A DNA stretch of 64,000 bases. It comes from an uncultured Clostridia bacterium (GTDB taxonomy: Bacteria > Bacillota > Clostridia > Christensenellales > Borkfalkiaceae). Positions 5,310-13,050 of the stretch are shown here, one piece after another. Below the pieces are notes generated by a model. That model saw only the letters and a list, made by a program, of their open reading frames with translations, did no database searches and was not told the DNA's origin. The stretch is from NCBI GenBank assembly GCA_947595585.1, contig CANQET010000009.1, positions 1 through 64,000 on the forward strand, written 5' to 3'. A program made the translations under genes and the position numbers. Numbering within the stretch: position 1 is the stretch's first letter; each line of letters opens with the position of its first letter.

Positions 5310-6345
5310 GGTACGTCATTTCGACGACCATAGGGAGGAGAAATCTCGGTATGGCATCCGAACAGGCATTCGAAATACGTCATTCTGAGCGAAGCCCGTT
5401 AGGGCGAAGTCGAAGAATCGCAATAGTCTTAGCCTCATATTGTAGCTCATATATAAGATTAAGACTGCGGCGACCCTTCAACTACGTTCAGGGTGACGTG
5501 ATTAGAAGCACCGCCCCCCACCACCGCTACGCGGAGCCTCCCCCCGAAGGGGGTAGGCCTTGCGCTCTGAATGAACCCCGTCGTTTCCCGCCCACCCCCC
5601 TACCCCCCTCCAATGGAGGGGGTATCGCTTGGGATTGGCCGTGACGGATGGGGGGCAAAGGGAATGGAGTGGAGCACGTCATTTCGAACGTAGTGAGAAA
5701 TCTCAAGTAGAATTAAGACTAAGGCGATTCTTACTTCGCCTAACGGCTCGTGCCGCGCTTAGAGAATTAGAAATGCGCGCGGGGCGGCAAGCTCAGAATG
5801 ACGTAATTAGAACAAGATTCCTCCTCCCTACGGTCGTCGGAATGACGTATTGATGTGCCCCTACGCAGTCCATCCCCTTGCTTCCCCTTTTAGGGGAAGT
5901 ACCCGCATCGCGGGGGAAGGGGTTTCAAAACCCCTCAGCCGCGTCTCACGCCGCGACAGCTCCCCTACGAGGGGAGCCAAGGGGCGCGTGTGATACGCGC
6001 GCACGTCATTTCGAACGTAGTGAGAAATCTCACCCTTGAGATTCCTCACCCCCCCTGGGGGTTCGGAATGACGTACTGAGGGGCTCCGTCGTATTCCGCC
6101 CACCCCCCTACCCCCCTCCATTGGAGGGGGTATCGCTTGGAATAGGCTCCTACGCAGTCCGTCCCTCATCCCGAACGAAGCGTAGCGGAGTGAGCGGATC
6201 TTAAGATTCACTCGCCCCTAACGGGGCTCGGAATGAGGTCGCTCATGATGTGCCCCGTCGTCTTCCTTGCCTCCCCCACCACCGCCTACGGCGGAGCCTC
6301 CCCCCGAAGGGGGTAGGCCTTGCGTTTTTGATGGGGGTGGAAGAT
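5310..6345. repeat. Intergenic repeat mosaic, block 2
   Basis: A kilobase without genes between spoIIR and the pilin operon. Recognisable units are: palindromic units bounded by CGTCATT...AATGACG (about 5387-5500, 5672-5853 and 6001-6079); the CCCCCTCCAATGGAGGGGG hairpin (about 5591-5637 and 6099-6145); a multi-hairpin unit (5874-5987); and the GAACGAAGCGTAGCGGAGTG unit (about 6164-6246). Truncated copies fill most of the remainder. The ORFs here share repeat-derived peptides in several frames and are rejected as genes. Confidence 0.8.
5874..5987. repeat. Multi-hairpin repeat family, representative copy
   Basis: About 114 bases closed by CCCCTTG/CAAGGGG. Inside are successive hairpins (CTTCCCC/GGGGAAG, AGGGGTTT/AAACCCCT, CCGCGT/ACGCCGCG, GCTCCCC/GGGGAGC). 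Other copies lie at about 12600-12711, 27746-27858 (reverse orientation), 56183-56296 and 59101-59217. Differences between copies tend to sit in loops and in the third hairpin. Confidence 0.75.
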
Positions 6346-6376
6346 TTTTGAAGAACTTTTTCAAAATTAAATATTA

Positions 6377-6464: not shown

Positions 6465-6493
6465 TTGACAATCTATTGTTTTTCCCGTACAAT
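6465..6493 (+). promoter_or_regulatory. Promoter of the prepilin-like operon
   Basis: TTGACA and TACAAT with a 17-base spacer. It lies about 55 bases before the first ATG of the operon and is the only consensus promoter seen upstream of the four genes. Confidence 0.8.
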
Positions 6494-6547: not shown

Positions 6548-7153
6548 ATGCACAAATTGCGGCAACAACGGGGAGTCTCTATCCTGATCGCACTCCTCAT
6601 CTTTTTGCTCGTCGCGCTGACGGGCACGGCGGTTCTCACGATGTCTGCCTCCAACGCGGGGCGCTTCGTCCATGCGCGGGAAGACCAGCAGCGCTATCTC
6701 TCCGTCGCCTCCGCCGTCCGTCTTCTGAAGGATGAGCTGCGTCCGCACGCCGTCACCGTGACGATCGACCCCGCCGCCCCCATGGCATTCGGGGAAGACG
6801 ACGGCATCGAAGTCGTACACCGCGGAAGCGCGCTCTTCGGCAAGATGGACGCCCTCTCCGCACACTGCAAAGAAAAGGCGCTCTCGGATATGACGGGCGC
6901 CCAAACGGTCGCAAGTCCCTTTTCCGCACACGTCACCGAATTTTCGCTCACCGTTCTCCCCGACGGTGAGGATAGCGGCCTCTCCGAGCGGATCGGCAAA
7001 GTGGACGTGCGGCTCGAGATCGACAACGAGACCTCCAATATGGTCTTCACCCTTTGGCACAGCGGGACGGCGGGCAACAACTACCGCACGCGCATGACCG
7101 TACGCCATATCGGCTATGTCGGGGGGGGGGGGGGGGACGACCTCTACCTATGA
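6548..7153 (+). CDS. PilX-like minor prepilin, out of frame after a G16 tract
   Basis: The start at 6548 follows AAAGGAGGACC; the longer track ORF begins inside the promoter. As sequenced the protein has 201 residues. The N-terminus GVSILIALLIFLLVALTG at 9-26 is a type IV pilin hydrophobic helix without the usual Glu+5, as in PilX-type minor pilins. The body is a small extracellular domain. At residue 191 translation enters 16 consecutive G and ends five codons later. One G fewer would open a frame reading TTSTYEKVFRWDADHAV and stopping at 7220, where the TGA overlaps the ATG of the next gene. That is the usual coupling in this genome, so the long form is probably the functional one. Either the tract is phase-variable or the base count is wrong. 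Confidence 0.75.
   Translation: MHKLRQQRGVSILIALLIFLLVALTGTAVLTMSASNAGRFVHAREDQQRYLSVASAVRLLKDELRPHAVTVTIDPAAPMAFGEDDGIEVVHRGSALFGKMDALSAHCKEKALSDMTGAQTVASPFSAHVTEFSLTVLPDGEDSGLSERIGKVDVRLEIDNETSNMVFTLWHSGTAGNNYRTRMTVRHIGYVGGGGGDDLYL
7121..7136 (+). repeat. Homopolymeric tract of 16 G inside a coding region
   Basis: Sixteen uninterrupted G are read as five glycine codons plus one base. A 15- or 18-base tract restores the downstream frame to the stop at 7218-7220. No other comparable homopolymer was noticed in a coding region of the window. Confidence 0.9.
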
Positions 7154-7216
7154 AAAAGTCTTCCGCTGGGACGCAGATCATGCCGTCGTCGAACTTCTTC
7201 AGGGAGGTACGGCAGC

Positions 7217-7540
7217 ATGAAACGCATCCGCAGAAAACTTTCCTCCCGCAGGGGCGAGACGCTCATTGAGCTCCTCGTCAGCATCATGATCATCGCCCTC
7301 TCGGCCTTTCTTCTCGTGATGATGTATGAGGCCTCGGGCAAGATCAACCTCGCAGCGCGGAAGATGGACGACGACCTCTACCAATCGGTGACCGAGATCG
7401 GCAACCACACGGGCGAGGCCCAAAAGGGCAAAGTACAATACGAGATCCAAGACGATTTCGAAGCAAGACCGGGCGAGATCGAAGTGGAGATCTTCTCCGA
7501 CGACACCGTCGTCACCTATTCAAAACCGACTACGCCGTGA
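7217..7540 (+). CDS. Prepilin-like protein (short)
   Basis: A 107-residue protein with a prepilin N-terminus: a basic leader, then G|ETLIELLVSIMIIALSAF with Glu at +5, the expected cleavage and methylation site of a type IV prepilin peptidase. The remaining 70 residues form a small hydrophilic domain without a recognised fold. It has a GGAGG site 8 bases before the ATG. The ATG also overlaps the stop of the frame-corrected upstream gene (ATGA). No peptidase or assembly ATPase is nearby. It is probably a minor pseudopilin of the same fibre as its neighbours. Confidence 0.8.
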   Translation: MKRIRRKLSSRRGETLIELLVSIMIIALSAFLLVMMYEASGKINLAARKMDDDLYQSVTEIGNHTGEAQKGKVQYEIQDDFEARPGEIEVEIFSDDTVVTYSKPTTP

Positions 7541-7557: not shown

Positions 7558-8112
7558 ATGAAACCAAACCGTTGGAAGAAGCTCCGAGCGGGCTTCACGC
7601 TTGCGGAGACGCTGATCGCCGTCGCGATCCTTGCCCTCGTCTCCTCTGCCTGCGTCACACTCTCCGCGACGATCCTCGGCACCAAGGCCGAGATGATCGA
7701 AGTCGGCAAGTGCCAATCGCTGGCCTCCACCGCCGTCATGACGATCGCCGATGAGATCCGCTATGGGCAGAACATCCGCTGCGACGGCGATAAGATCGTG
7801 ATCGACAGCATGAACTTCGGCGCGGGAACGCATTTCGCGGCCGAAGGCGGAAAGATCGTGGCAAAGAACAACGGGAAGGAGCCCTATGCCCTCCTCCCCG
7901 AAAAATATTACGGCACACTGACCGTCTCGAAGCTGACCCTCGAGCGGGTGAACCTCGCCGCCGCCCCCGAAGAAGGGGCGGAAGCCGAAGCGGACGAGGC
8001 GGCTTCCGTCGCAGTGCAGTATGCCGTAAAAATCTCCATCACCGTAAACGGCAGCGGCGGGAGCCTCTACTCCACCGAGATGACGGTCCCCGCGCTCAAC
8101 GGGATCCAATGA
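7558..8112 (+). CDS. Prepilin-like protein
   Basis: A 184-residue protein starting at 7558, which has AAGGAG seven bases upstream. The track start at 7537 is a GTG overlapping the previous stop and is a possible alternative. The N-terminus AGFTLAETLIAVAILALVSS gives a G12|F13 cleavage site and Glu+5. The C-terminal half is beta-rich with an acidic insertion (EEGAEAEADEAAS). It is the third member of the operon and precedes the giant GLUG-repeat member. A minor pilin or pseudopilin role is inferred from the N-terminus and the operon. Confidence 0.8.
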   Translation: MKPNRWKKLRAGFTLAETLIAVAILALVSSACVTLSATILGTKAEMIEVGKCQSLASTAVMTIADEIRYGQNIRCDGDKIVIDSMNFGAGTHFAAEGGKIVAKNNGKEPYALLPEKYYGTLTVSKLTLERVNLAAAPEEGAEAEADEAASVAVQYAVKISITVNGSGGSLYSTEMTVPALNGIQ

Positions 8113-8129: not shown

Positions 8130-11100
8130 ATGAAACATAGCATAAGGCATAGGCACATACACCGCACGCGGGGCTTCACATTGATGGAGGCCCTTATCGT
8201 CGTTGCGATCATTTCCATTTTGTTGGGGCTTGCGGTCCCCAATGTCATCTCGTATTCCCGCAGTCTGAAGCTCACTTCGCTCGACGACAGCGCCCACAGC
8301 ATCTTCATGGCGGCACAGAACAACCTCATGGCGATGAAGAATGCGGGCGAGGACCTCATGGACGTTTTCGGGCTCGACGAAGAGACCGACAAGGTCCCCC
8401 TTGCCAAGACGAAGACGGCGGCCATCGGGGAATATTACGCCATCGATAAGAGCAACGGCCTCGAGAAACTTCTGCCGAACCTTTCGATCGATGCAGAACT
8501 GAAGGCCCAAAACTGCGTCGTGGAGATCGATCCGCACACGGGCGCCGTGTATGCCGTTTGGTTCTGGGAAAGCCACCCCTTCCTCTACAGGACGCAGGCC
8601 TACAACACGGCACGGCCCGAGCGCAGCGACCGCCTGCGCAACCATGTGATGGTGGGCTACTACGGCGGCACGCAGATCTTCCGCCCCGAGATCCGCCAGA
8701 CCCCGCTTCCCACCGTGGAGATCGTCAACGCCGAAGAGCTGCTCGTCAATGTCACCGTCTCCGTGGAAGAAGACACGGAAATTTTGCTTACGACCCCCAT
8801 CCTTCTCACCGTCACCCTGACTTCGGAAGGCAAAGACCATGAGATCGTCGCCGATGCTCCCCTCAACTATAGGAATGAAGGCGGGAAGGGCAAGTATTGC
8901 GCCACCCTCGTCCTCGATACGCTGAAAGAAGGGGCGTACCCCACCTTTTTCAATACCTTTATGGGGAAAGACTACGAAAAGCAGGGGATGCGCCTTCGGG
9001 ATTGGAAGGACACCTTCGGGGAGCCCATCGTCACGCCCGGCAAGGACTTCGACCTCACGGTGAAAGTCTGCGTGGAAGAGGACGGCTATCTTCCCCAATA
9101 TGTGTACCATTACGGCGAAAACAGCTTGTTCGCTTCGGTCGAAAAGAGCACGGCGAGGATCGCCTACGGGCGGCATCTGCAGAATTTGGATCCCGCGGTC
9201 TCGGGGGTGAGCTTCATCACCGCCGCAGAGCAGATCGCCTCCGTCGATTTCGACGCCCCGTCCAACGATACAAACCCCGTAAGATCGTGGAAAGATACAT
9301 ATGGGGTGCGAAAATTCCTCCCCATCGTCAATTCTTCTCTCACCCATTACGACGGGAAAAAGCATGAGATCGTTCACCTCTCGATCCAAAAAGAGGAGGG
9401 CGCCGCGGGGCTCTTCAAGACCGTGCAAAGCGGCACTCGCCTCGAGAATATCTACCTCAAAGACGCCGAGATCCACGCCCCGATCGTGGGCGGGCTCGTA
9501 GGAAAAGCGGACGATCTTTCGATCGCGGGCTGCCGCGTCTATCTGACCGAAGAGAGCTCCAAGGCGGAAGGCGCCGCGGCACGGCTCTTTGTGGGTGAGA
9601 CGGTCGGCGGGCTCATCGGAACGAGCGGAGAAGGCGGGCGCGGCGAGCTCAAGATCCATGGAAGCCTTGCGAGCACCAACGAGTTCGGCGATACGGTCGG
9701 CGGGCTCATCGGAATGTGTGAAAATCCCGTCGAGATCGAGAACAGCTATGCCGCAGGCTACCTTACGGGCGCCAAGGCGGGCGGGCTCATCGGCATCGCG
9801 AACGAAACAACTTCCCACGTGACCCTCAAGACGAGCTATGCCGCGGGCGTCATCGCCAAAGGCGAAAAGACGGCGCTCGCGGGCGGGCTCATCGCACAGG
9901 GCAAGCCGCATTCCGCCGAAGATTGCTATGCCGCAGTGCGCTACGATCGGGCGATCATCGAAGCCGTAAAGAACGGAAATAAAATAGAGGTCTACGGCAC
10001 CTTCCGCGGCGACACGGAACACACGGCCGAGTACGTCTCCCAGATGGGGCTCGAATATCGGGACGGCGGGACGCCTATCACCTCGTTTGAGCTCTACGTT
10101 TGGGGCGGCTATCAGCATTTCGACGACCTCCGCGAGGCCAATCCCTACAAACTTCTGCCCGAGACGGAGCATAGATACGGCCTCTCCGAGAAGTACCCCT
10201 ACCGCATGATCCGAGAGGACGGCAAAGACGTGCCGCACTACGGCGATTGGCTCGAAGAGACCGAGGCCTATCTCGTCTACTATGAGCAGTACGACGACAA
10301 AACCTATGGCATCTACGCCGATTACGAACGCTTCAAGACCAACACCCTCCGTGCGAGCGCCTTCGAAGATGAATTGGACGATCGCTCCTACGTGATCGAC
10401 GACGGCTACTCCCTCTTCGTCCTCTCGACGCCCGATAACGACGACGCGCTCAGCTTGGACGTCAGCATCGGCGATAAACCGTATAAATTCGAATTGGAGA
10501 CCTTCCAAGACGTCGACTTCCGCGGCACGAAGGTCAACTGCTCCATGCTCGTCATCAAAGAGCCCGATATCTCCATCAAGAGCAGCTGGACGGAATACGA
10601 CAGCAAGATAGATCCCCTCAACCAGCCCATCCGAACGTATTATACGACGCTCGTCTACAAGATCGTCTACACGGATATCTTCGGCACGACGTATGTGAAC
10701 CCGTATACGACAAAGACCTACTACTTCAACCCCCACTTCGCGTGCGACGTCTTCGAAGATACGCCCACACTCCGTTCGGATGCGAGCGGCGTCTACATTC
10801 CCAAGGCCAAGACGGGGGCGGAGGGCACCCTTTCCGAGAGCGCAGAGCTTCCCGATACGGCACACTACACGGCCGCGGAGGGCGACGTCGTCATCCGCTC
10901 TGCCCGCCACCTCTCCAACCTGCACTGCTACACCAACACGGAATCGGGGATAAGTGGCGTTCATGGCATCGCGGGCGTGAAATCGGCAAACTTCCACCAG
11001 CTCTTCGATATCGACTTTTTGCTGTACGTACAGACGAGGCTTGCGGGCGGCGGAAATTATAACGACAGGATCTACCCCGCGATCACCTACAACGGGCTCT

Positions 11101-12092
11101 ACGACGGGCATGAACACGTCATCCGCAACATCTTCTTGAGCAGACAGGCGATCAAAGACGGCATCGGGCTCTTCGCAAAATCCGTGGGAACGGATCTGAA
11201 AAATATCTTTATTGTCAACCCCGTTGGGTTTGTGAGCGAAAACGACTTCGGCAACTATATGGGCGGGCTCGTCGGCCATATCACGGGCGGCTCCGTCGAG
11301 AACTGCGGCATCTACACCGAGGCGAAGGAAGAAGAGAACGCCTTTGTGACCTACAAGCCCTATTACCGCCACAAGGCCGTCAACAGCAACGATCATACCG
11401 TCGTCCTCGGAGGCCTCATCGGGTATGCCCAAAACTGCAAGATCACGGGCAGCTTTGCCGCGGTGAAGATCTTCGGGCATACGGCGGGCGGCTTCATCGG
11501 GGAGATGGCAAGCGGCACCGTCGTAAAGGACTGCTACGCGGGCGGCTATACGAAATACAACTCGTATTACAGCGAGAAATGGCCGCAAGTGAAGGGGCTT
11601 GATAACGTCGGGGGGTACCCCTCCTATTCCGAGCAAAGCGGCACGGATAGCATCAACGTGGGCGGCGGCGGAACATCTATCATCGACGGAAAGCAATATG
11701 AAGGCTATATCGGCGGCTTTGTCGGGATCGTAGATGAGGGTGCGAGCTTTGAAGGCATCTGCTATTCGACCTGCTCGGTACGCGGTTCCTTCACCGAGCG
11801 GATCGGCCTCTTTGCGGGAAAGACGCCAAGCGGGTATACCACCCGCGCTACGCTCTACTCCGTGGGCGTGATCATCACGGAGGGCGCAACGCCTCAGACT
11901 CTGACTTTGAACGGGAACAAATATTCGTTCTATCAAAAAGGGAAGGCGCGGAACGAATCGTATTTGAAGGCAAAGGCGAACGTCAAGGCCACAGCGCCCA
12001 CGGCCAAGGCCTATCCCTACAACGATGCGCTCAATGGCACGCCCTACCCCTACCTCACCAATCTCCAAAAGCACTACGGCGACTGGGTCTGA
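8130..12092 (+). CDS. Giant prepilin-like protein with GLUG-type repeats
   Basis: A 1320-residue protein. The start is taken at 8130, preceded by GGGAGGAGACC. An upstream ATG at 8109 overlaps the previous stop and may also be used. The N-terminus TRGFTLMEALIVVAIISILL is a textbook type IV prepilin signal (cleavage after G15, Glu at 20). The rest is extracellular. GLUG-like units (GGLIG, AGGLIGIA, MGGLVGHI, AGGFIGEM), each followed by a C/SYAAG-like strand, cluster at about 450-620 and 1040-1240, with a different beta-rich region between. GLUG motifs occur in bacterial adhesins and extracellular peptidases. Most pilins have 120-250 residues, so this resembles a tip adhesin delivered on a pilus. 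A strong terminator follows. Confidence 0.85.
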   Translation: MKHSIRHRHIHRTRGFTLMEALIVVAIISILLGLAVPNVISYSRSLKLTSLDDSAHSIFMAAQNNLMAMKNAGEDLMDVFGLDEETDKVPLAKTKTAAIGEYYAIDKSNGLEKLLPNLSIDAELKAQNCVVEIDPHTGAVYAVWFWESHPFLYRTQAYNTARPERSDRLRNHVMVGYYGGTQIFRPEIRQTPLPTVEIVNAEELLVNVTVSVEEDTEILLTTPILLTVTLTSEGKDHEIVADAPLNYRNEGGKGKYCATLVLDTLKEGAYPTFFNTFMGKDYEKQGMRLRDWKDTFGEPIVTPGKDFDLTVKVCVEEDGYLPQYVYHYGENSLFASVEKSTARIAYGRHLQNLDPAVSGVSFITAAEQIASVDFDAPSNDTNPVRSWKDTYGVRKFLPIVNSSLTHYDGKKHEIVHLSIQKEEGAAGLFKTVQSGTRLENIYLKDAEIHAPIVGGLVGKADDLSIAGCRVYLTEESSKAEGAAARLFVGETVGGLIGTSGEGGRGELKIHGSLASTNEFGDTVGGLIGMCENPVEIENSYAAGYLTGAKAGGLIGIANETTSHVTLKTSYAAGVIAKGEKTALAGGLIAQGKPHSAEDCYAAVRYDRAIIEAVKNGNKIEVYGTFRGDTEHTAEYVSQMGLEYRDGGTPITSFELYVWGGYQHFDDLREANPYKLLPETEHRYGLSEKYPYRMIREDGKDVPHYGDWLEETEAYLVYYEQYDDKTYGIYADYERFKTNTLRASAFEDELDDRSYVIDDGYSLFVLSTPDNDDALSLDVSIGDKPYKFELETFQDVDFRGTKVNCSMLVIKEPDISIKSSWTEYDSKIDPLNQPIRTYYTTLVYKIVYTDIFGTTYVNPYTTKTYYFNPHFACDVFEDTPTLRSDASGVYIPKAKTGAEGTLSESAELPDTAHYTAAEGDVVIRSARHLSNLHCYTNTESGISGVHGIAGVKSANFHQLFDIDFLLYVQTRLAGGGNYNDRIYPAITYNGLYDGHEHVIRNIFLSRQAIKDGIGLFAKSVGTDLKNIFIVNPVGFVSENDFGNYMGGLVGHITGGSVENCGIYTEAKEEENAFVTYKPYYRHKAVNSNDHTVVLGGLIGYAQNCKITGSFAAVKIFGHTAGGFIGEMASGTVVKDCYAGGYTKYNSYYSEKWPQVKGLDNVGGYPSYSEQSGTDSINVGGGGTSIIDGKQYEGYIGGFVGIVDEGASFEGICYSTCSVRGSFTERIGLFAGKTPSGYTTRATLYSVGVIITEGATPQTLTLNGNKYSFYQKGKARNESYLKAKANVKATAPTAKAYPYNDALNGTPYPYLTNLQKHYGDWV

Positions 12093-12164: not shown

Positions 12165-13045
12165 GGAGCACGTCATTTCGCCCCGACCGCAGCGCCCACG
12201 TCATTTCGAACGTAGTGAGAAATCTCAAGGTCGAGATTCCTCACCCCCCTTGGGGGTTCGGAATGACGTACTGAGGGGCCCCATCGTATTCCGCCCACCC
12301 CCCTACCCCCCTCCGATGGAGGGGGTATCGCTTGGGATTGGCCGTGGCGGGTGCACGACGAAGCCCCTACGAAGTCCGCATGCCCCCTCCGTGGGAGGGG
12401 GATCAAGGGGGTGGGGCGGCAGATAAGCAAGTACGCAGTCCGACCCTCATCCCGAACGTAGCGTAGCGGAGTGAGCGGATCTTGAAGATACGCTCGCTAC
12501 GCTACTTCGCCGAACGGCTCGTGCCGTGCTTCGATAAACAATAGAAGCCTCGCTACGTTCGGTATGAGGTCGCTCAGGATCAGCCCCTACGAAGTCCGTC
12601 CCCTTGCTTCCCCTTTTAGGGGGACCGCATCGCGGGGGAAGGGGTTTCCAAAACCCCTCAGCCGCGTCTTACGCCGCGACAGCTCCCCTACGAGGGGAGC
12701 CAAGGGGCGCTCATGATTAGCCTCGTCGTATTCTGCCCACCCCCCTACCCCCCTCCAATGGAGGGGGTATCACTTGAAATAAACTATATAGGTATCCCGT
12801 CTACGTCATTTCGAACGTAGTGAGAAATCTCACCCTTGAGATTCCTCACCCCCCTTGGGGGTTCGGAATGACGTACTGAGGGGCCTCGTCGTATTCTGCC
12901 CACCCCCCTACCCCCCTCCAATGGAGGGGGTATCGCTTGAAATAAGCCGCGGAGGGGGTAGGGGGTCTGTTCTCCAATGGAGGGTTATGTGTTTTGTTCT
13001 CCGATGTGGGGCGTCACGCGAAATAAACGATATAGGTACCCCGTC
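12165..13045. repeat. Intergenic repeat mosaic, block 3
   Basis: A gene-free stretch between the convergent pilin operon and pheT. It holds two CGTCATT...AATGACG palindromic units (about 12171-12271 and 12801-12877), three CCCCCTCC hairpin units (about 12294-12340, 12736-12783 and 12897-12945), one GTAGCGGAGTGAGCGGATC unit (about 12440-12575) and one multi-hairpin unit (about 12600-12711). No promoter or terminator for pheT was identified in it. Confidence 0.8.
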
Positions 13046-13050
13046 TGCTT

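Follow-up and report, generated by a model that had tools for sequence, protein, structure and literature searches.

Phase variation by homopolymer slippage has mostly been described in Gram-negative pathogens, and poly-G/C phase variation of the type IV pilus genes pilC1 and pilC2 was reportedly described by Jonsson in 1991. Neisserial pilC is phase-switched by a genic tract of 9-20 G (PMC5953494). The locus presented here is located in a stretch of 64,000 nucleotides from an uncultured Clostridia bacterium (the window) and resembles pilC1 and pilC2 in that a genic G/C homopolymer of comparable length is present in a type IV pilus gene, with a predicted ON/OFF logic based on frameshifting. 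The neisserial host is repair-proficient, and the genome of the window encodes MutS and MutL. However, PilC is a large tip and retraction protein and not a pilin. In addition, the neisserial tract is located early in the gene, whereas the tract analyzed here lies close to the 3' terminus of a minor pilin gene of a Clostridia MAG, where switching is predicted from the sequence.

In Campylobacter jejuni, 29 poly-G loci per genome were described as contingency loci which switch at about 1e-3 per division (PMC4965091). These loci are similar in that G tracts are found within reading frames of surface-related genes, whereas only one long tract is present in the genome of the window. Campylobacter is not known to have canonical mismatch repair, in contrast to the MutS- and MutL-encoding genome analyzed here. 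According to a 2025 review, multi-locus phase variation may appear to be confined to pathogens because of database bias (PMC11868660). In the titles and abstracts of the open-access papers listed in our searches, homopolymer switching was found neither for a minor pilin of the GspK/PilX type nor in this lineage. A switch of this kind has thus been described in neisserial pilC; the target here, a tip-type minor pilin of an uncultured member of the Clostridia, appears to be new. If true, a poly-G switch of a pilus tip in a gut Clostridium with mismatch repair would extend the mechanism to commensal Firmicutes.

With respect to the gene product, the closest described proteins are the tip-initiating minor pilins GspK and PilX of T2SS and Pseudomonas-type T4P, which have a prepilin-like start without Glu5. 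The protein encoded by the tract gene shares the prepilin-like N-terminus after Gly without Glu5 (RG/VSILIALLIF), the long hydrophobic N-terminal helix and the location in an operon with three other pilins. It differs in that its partner is a giant GLUG pilin and in that solved structures gave no clear match. Furthermore, no Pfam family was matched, and the curated GspK model was matched by the N-terminus only, at 21.2 bits as compared to a cut-off of 130 bits. We therefore refer to the protein as GspK/PilX-like and not as GspK.

The G16 tract and the pilin operon

A pure homopolymer of 16 G is present inside the first gene of an operon of four minor-pilin genes (Table 1), at the position given in a preliminary description of this DNA. 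It is the sole G/C run of at least 11 nt on both strands of the whole 1.69-Mb assembly (1,694,251 bases), all of the other 19 runs of at least 8 nt being 8-10 nt long. By chance, about 0.002-0.03 G16 runs per whole genome are expected from Markov models of order 1-5. As is typical for a contingency gene, the homopolymer is exceptionally long for its genome, the next longest run being 10 nt.

As assembled, the reading frame passes through the tract with the sequence ...HIGYV-GGGGG-DDLYL and then terminates. The break of the frame had been described before and is confirmed, but it had been placed after residue 190, whereas the last native residue before the tract is V191. In the frame corresponding to 15 G (mod 3), translation would continue with TTSTYEKVFRWDADHAVVELLQGGTAA up to a TGA at 7218-7220, which overlaps the ATG of gene 2 at 7217. 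The third frame leads to an unrelated tail with a stop about 50 nt within gene 2.

Table 1. Features of the tract gene and of the downstream pilin genes in the window.
Feature	Position	Strand	Basis
Sigma-70-like promoter TTGACA-17-TACAAT, 11/12	6465..6493	+	consensus scan
PilX/GspK-like minor pilin gene as assembled, 201 aa, tail GGGGGDDLYL	6548..7153	+	GspK N-terminal match, E=1.7e-4, below family cut-off
G16 homopolymer, putative slippage switch	7121..7136	+	sequence, run counts, Markov models
Conserved C-terminal coding segment in the shifted frame (TTSTYEKVFRWDADHAVVELLQGGTAA, stop), TGA overlapping next ATG	7137..7220	+	translation; homologues; last 16-residue strand of family model
Shine-Dalgarno-like GGGAGG belonging to gene 2	7202..7207	+	read from sequence
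Gene 2, small pilin-like protein, 107 aa, N_methyl	7217..7540	+	ORF and domain search
Gene 3, pilin-like protein, 184 aa, N_methyl; weak ComGE/GspI resemblance	7558..8112	+	domain/profile search
Gene 4, giant pilin, 1320 aa, N_methyl and GLUG motif	8130..12092	+	domain search

The four pilin-like genes are co-directional with the tract gene at the first position and a strong promoter-like site upstream, and the prepilin motif is carried by all three downstream genes. The start of gene 4 was chosen on account of the upstream sequence GGAGGAGA; an alternative ATG at 8109 overlaps the stop of gene 3. The giant pilin encoded by gene 4 is a probable modular adhesin. In addition to the other pilins of the operon, two pilus-type ATPases (PilB/PilT-type) and further pilins are encoded elsewhere in the genome. 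A second giant pilin, followed by a PilX-like gene without a tract, is encoded at the end of contig C21 (1,251 aa, L122:2479-6234). GC-rich dispersed repeats such as CCCACCCCCCTACCCCCCTCCAATGGAGGGGGTATCGCTTG flank the pilin operon at 5400-6350 and 12190-13050, with two and three copies, respectively.

The preliminary description had also proposed that a shift of the frame uncouples the next genes. This effect would be weak, since gene 2 has its own Shine-Dalgarno-like sequence; the stop of the assembled frame is located 63 nt before its ATG.

The conserved frame and a second tract in the nearest ortholog

Using the family alignment, 22 intact homologues were identified in sibling Clostridia MAGs ('Lapin' bins, which we take from the bin name to be derived from rabbit gut). 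The corresponding search of the genome contigs with the single protein sequence gave no relative, and only siblings were found with the family alignment. An exact 24-mer had no match in viral contigs, and none of the phage records matched. All of the 22 homologues end in a recognizable version of a conserved strand with the consensus xRxLxFxTxxAxFxVE, and 13 of them have kept the junction with the ATGA overlap. As judged from this shared final strand and junction, the shifted frame (15 G mod 3) is the ancestral and real frame of the tract gene, in agreement with the sensible alternative C-terminus and the TGA/ATG overlap pointed out in the preliminary description. A change in tract length thus alters the frame of a conserved product. 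None of the 22 intact homologues contains a G/C run of at least 7 nt within the gene. The combination of a missing tract and a missing downstream frame in homologues had been named beforehand as an argument against a switch; the tract is indeed absent from these proteins' genes, whereas the downstream frame is present.

In an AlphaFold2 model of the intact homologue L180 (mean pLDDT 82.8), an N-terminal helix (residues 8-65) is followed by a beta-sheet with a last strand at residues 187-202. When combined with the alignment, this model places the G16 in a variable loop directly before the last strand, and the strand lost after the tract belongs to the beta-sheet. For the as-assembled form the mean pLDDT was 61 as compared to 83 for the intact homologue, a difference between predictions with different alignments and targets which does not permit any inference of misfolding. 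A Foldseek search gave no match at E<=0.001, and the best VIA-align Z score of 4.3 was obtained with unrelated chains. Neither a pilin nor a clear solved relative was among the structures listed.

The nearest ortholog, with 65% DNA identity, was found in G140, a rabbit-gut Clostridia MAG (contig CANRNP010000032.1). No other close ortholog is present in the 103 genomes of the genus (one per species). Its operon is collinear with that of the window, genes 2-4 are intact, and an upstream TTGACA-17-TAAAAT resembles the promoter of the window. The G140 tract gene is off frame as assembled and contains a G11, the only run of at least 11 nt in that genome. This tract precedes the position of the G16 by about 50 codons and lies in a different inter-strand loop, both tracts being located in inter-strand loops of the family model (pLDDT 83). 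At the site of the G16, G140 has the ordinary codons YQHGLPDGAASYTKVFRWD, equal in length to the in-frame tract of the window; at the site of the G11, the window has the ordinary codons LPDGEDSGLSERIG, equal in length to the in-frame tract of G140. With in-frame tracts, the two orthologs align without any length change at either site. By our own estimate, a lone tract would hit this gene by chance with a probability of about 4e-4 (roughly 700/1.7e6), or somewhat higher as the gene is GC-rich.

The NG86 pN/pS values between the two orthologs are 0.45 before, 0.42 between and 0.33 after the tracts, the last value being derived from 14 codons. Thus, at the sequence level the substitutions on both sides of the tracts point to coding constraint, most of which is older than the tracts. 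More distant homologues have no tract, and recurrence in the same gene is seen in the G140 ortholog. That the same gene has acquired a tract twice, independently, speaks against chance, artefact or simple decay and in favour of a contingency switch in which slippage sets the ON and OFF states. Phase variation, put forward as a possibility in the preliminary description, is supported as the best reading and is strengthened by the independent G11.

The proposed switch and alternative explanations

We consider the G16 to be a genuine contingency locus at which slippage toggles a tip-type minor pilin between a full-length form and a form without the last strand, with a probability of about 0.67. 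Slipped-strand mispairing during replication would change the length of the G tract. At lengths divisible by three (12, 15, 18), the PilX/GspK-like minor pilin of the tip type would be complete and include its last beta-strand, whereas other lengths would give a poly-glycine tail without the final strand and hence a protein which is probably unable to fold or to join the pilus tip. Toggling would then determine whether a type IV pilus tip complex carrying the giant GLUG pilin encoded downstream is assembled or presented, and off-frame lengths may in addition mildly reduce translation of the downstream genes. In other words, the cells probably flip a surface pilus on and off by miscopying a run of G. 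The tract, its frames, the conserved ON frame, the intact operon and the second, independent tract of the ortholog are seen directly in the sequences; it is inferred that the tract slips in the population, that the shifted frames abolish function and that the pilus phenotype changes. The poly-G tracts which some siblings have in typical switch targets (see below) and the example of neisserial pilC are in favour of such a switch. The presence of MutS and MutL, which lower slippage, counts against it, as do the lone tract in this genome, the lack of a tract in the other homologues and the poly-G tracts of the genus, most of which are intergenic or at contig ends and two of which are in housekeeping genes.

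Less likely, although the strongest of the alternatives, is an error in calling the tract length. In this case the population would be essentially fixed in frame (e.g. with G15), one G having been added by the assembler or by PCR, and the gene would be ON, the tract encoding a poly-glycine linker. The genomes of relatives are MAGs assembled from short reads (SPAdes-style), and the assembly of the window is probably of the same type. PCR slippage leads to a 20-35-fold over-estimation of poly-G variants, and the sequencing error rises with the repeat number (PMC4965091). Furthermore, the in-frame spacing is exactly equal to that of the ortholog. A consensus of 16 as compared to 15 G is not reliable in a short-read assembly and lies within the slippage error. 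Therefore, the OFF state which had been assigned to the gene as sequenced is unsafe. However, a long pure G tract would be unusual even if fixed and is intrinsically prone to slippage, and the ortholog is in the same situation at a different site. Dark-cycle poly-G, moreover, cannot bridge both flanks, as reads of the opposite strand need poly-C.

It is considerably less probable that the gene is no longer needed and that the tract arose as a chance frameshift and expands while the gene decays. Although the genes of the window and of G140 are both off frame as assembled, neither contains a further stop or frameshift, the downstream pilins including giants of more than 1,300 codons are intact in both, and codon-level constraint is seen throughout. 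A poly-G arising twice in the same gene is not expected from random decay either.

Marginally less probable still is transcriptional slippage, in which RNA polymerase would slip on the G tract and produce mRNAs of mixed frame and thereby a non-heritable ratio of two pilin forms. The anatomy of the locus fits this equally well, and RNA polymerase is known to slip on long homopolymers, but the known cases are mostly runs of A or T, and slippage of the DNA at the same tract would be compatible with it. A dark-cycle poly-G artefact was rejected for the G16, which lies mid-contig (77.6 kb) between flanks of conserved length whose spacing matches that of the ortholog, and for which no poly-C would have been available to let opposite-strand reads join the right flank.

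Returning to the slippage switch, a broader and rather tentative idea is that uncultured gut Clostridia have several alternative giant-adhesin pilus cassettes and that, in one of these, poly-G switches have arisen repeatedly and independently at different surface loops of the tip-initiating minor pilin, so that slippage would pick which adhesin tip, if any, is shown.

Poly-G tracts in other genomes of the genus

Poly-G tracts of at least 11 nt were found in 42 of the 103 genomes of the genus, mostly in intergenic regions or at contig ends; the genome of the window has a single such tract. Poly-G tracts thus occur in the lineage, but obvious contingency genes are not abundant in it. Some of the genic tracts of siblings are located in typical switch targets, namely a DNA methylase, a carbohydrate-binding surface protein and a glycosyltransferase. 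In G056 (L050:751-2114, minus strand), a ParB-like half and an N6_N4 DNA methylase half lie in different frames on either side of a G11, an arrangement resembling a phase-variable methyltransferase. A methylase-like gene of G142 (L118:1738-2357, minus strand) is split by a G11 into two frames, neither half of which has a Pfam match. In G129 (L047:486-3012, minus strand), a G11 splits a large surface-type protein with a shift of the frame and CBM_4_9 in the downstream half, and in G139 (L116:153-1802, minus strand) an in-frame G15 is located between two glycosyltransferase domains. Poly-G also interrupts the housekeeping genes for a cyclophilin in G013 (L110:2020-2030) and for RsmF in G043 (L101), either through error or through genuine mutation. 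These cases show that poly-G can occur within a gene without being a contingency locus. In G009, six contigs (L096, L097, L099 and L123-L125) end in G17-G26; these ends probably reflect artefacts of assembly or sequencing, or else contigs that broke at unstable tracts, and for contig-end tracts of this kind a dark-cycle poly-G artefact is plausible.
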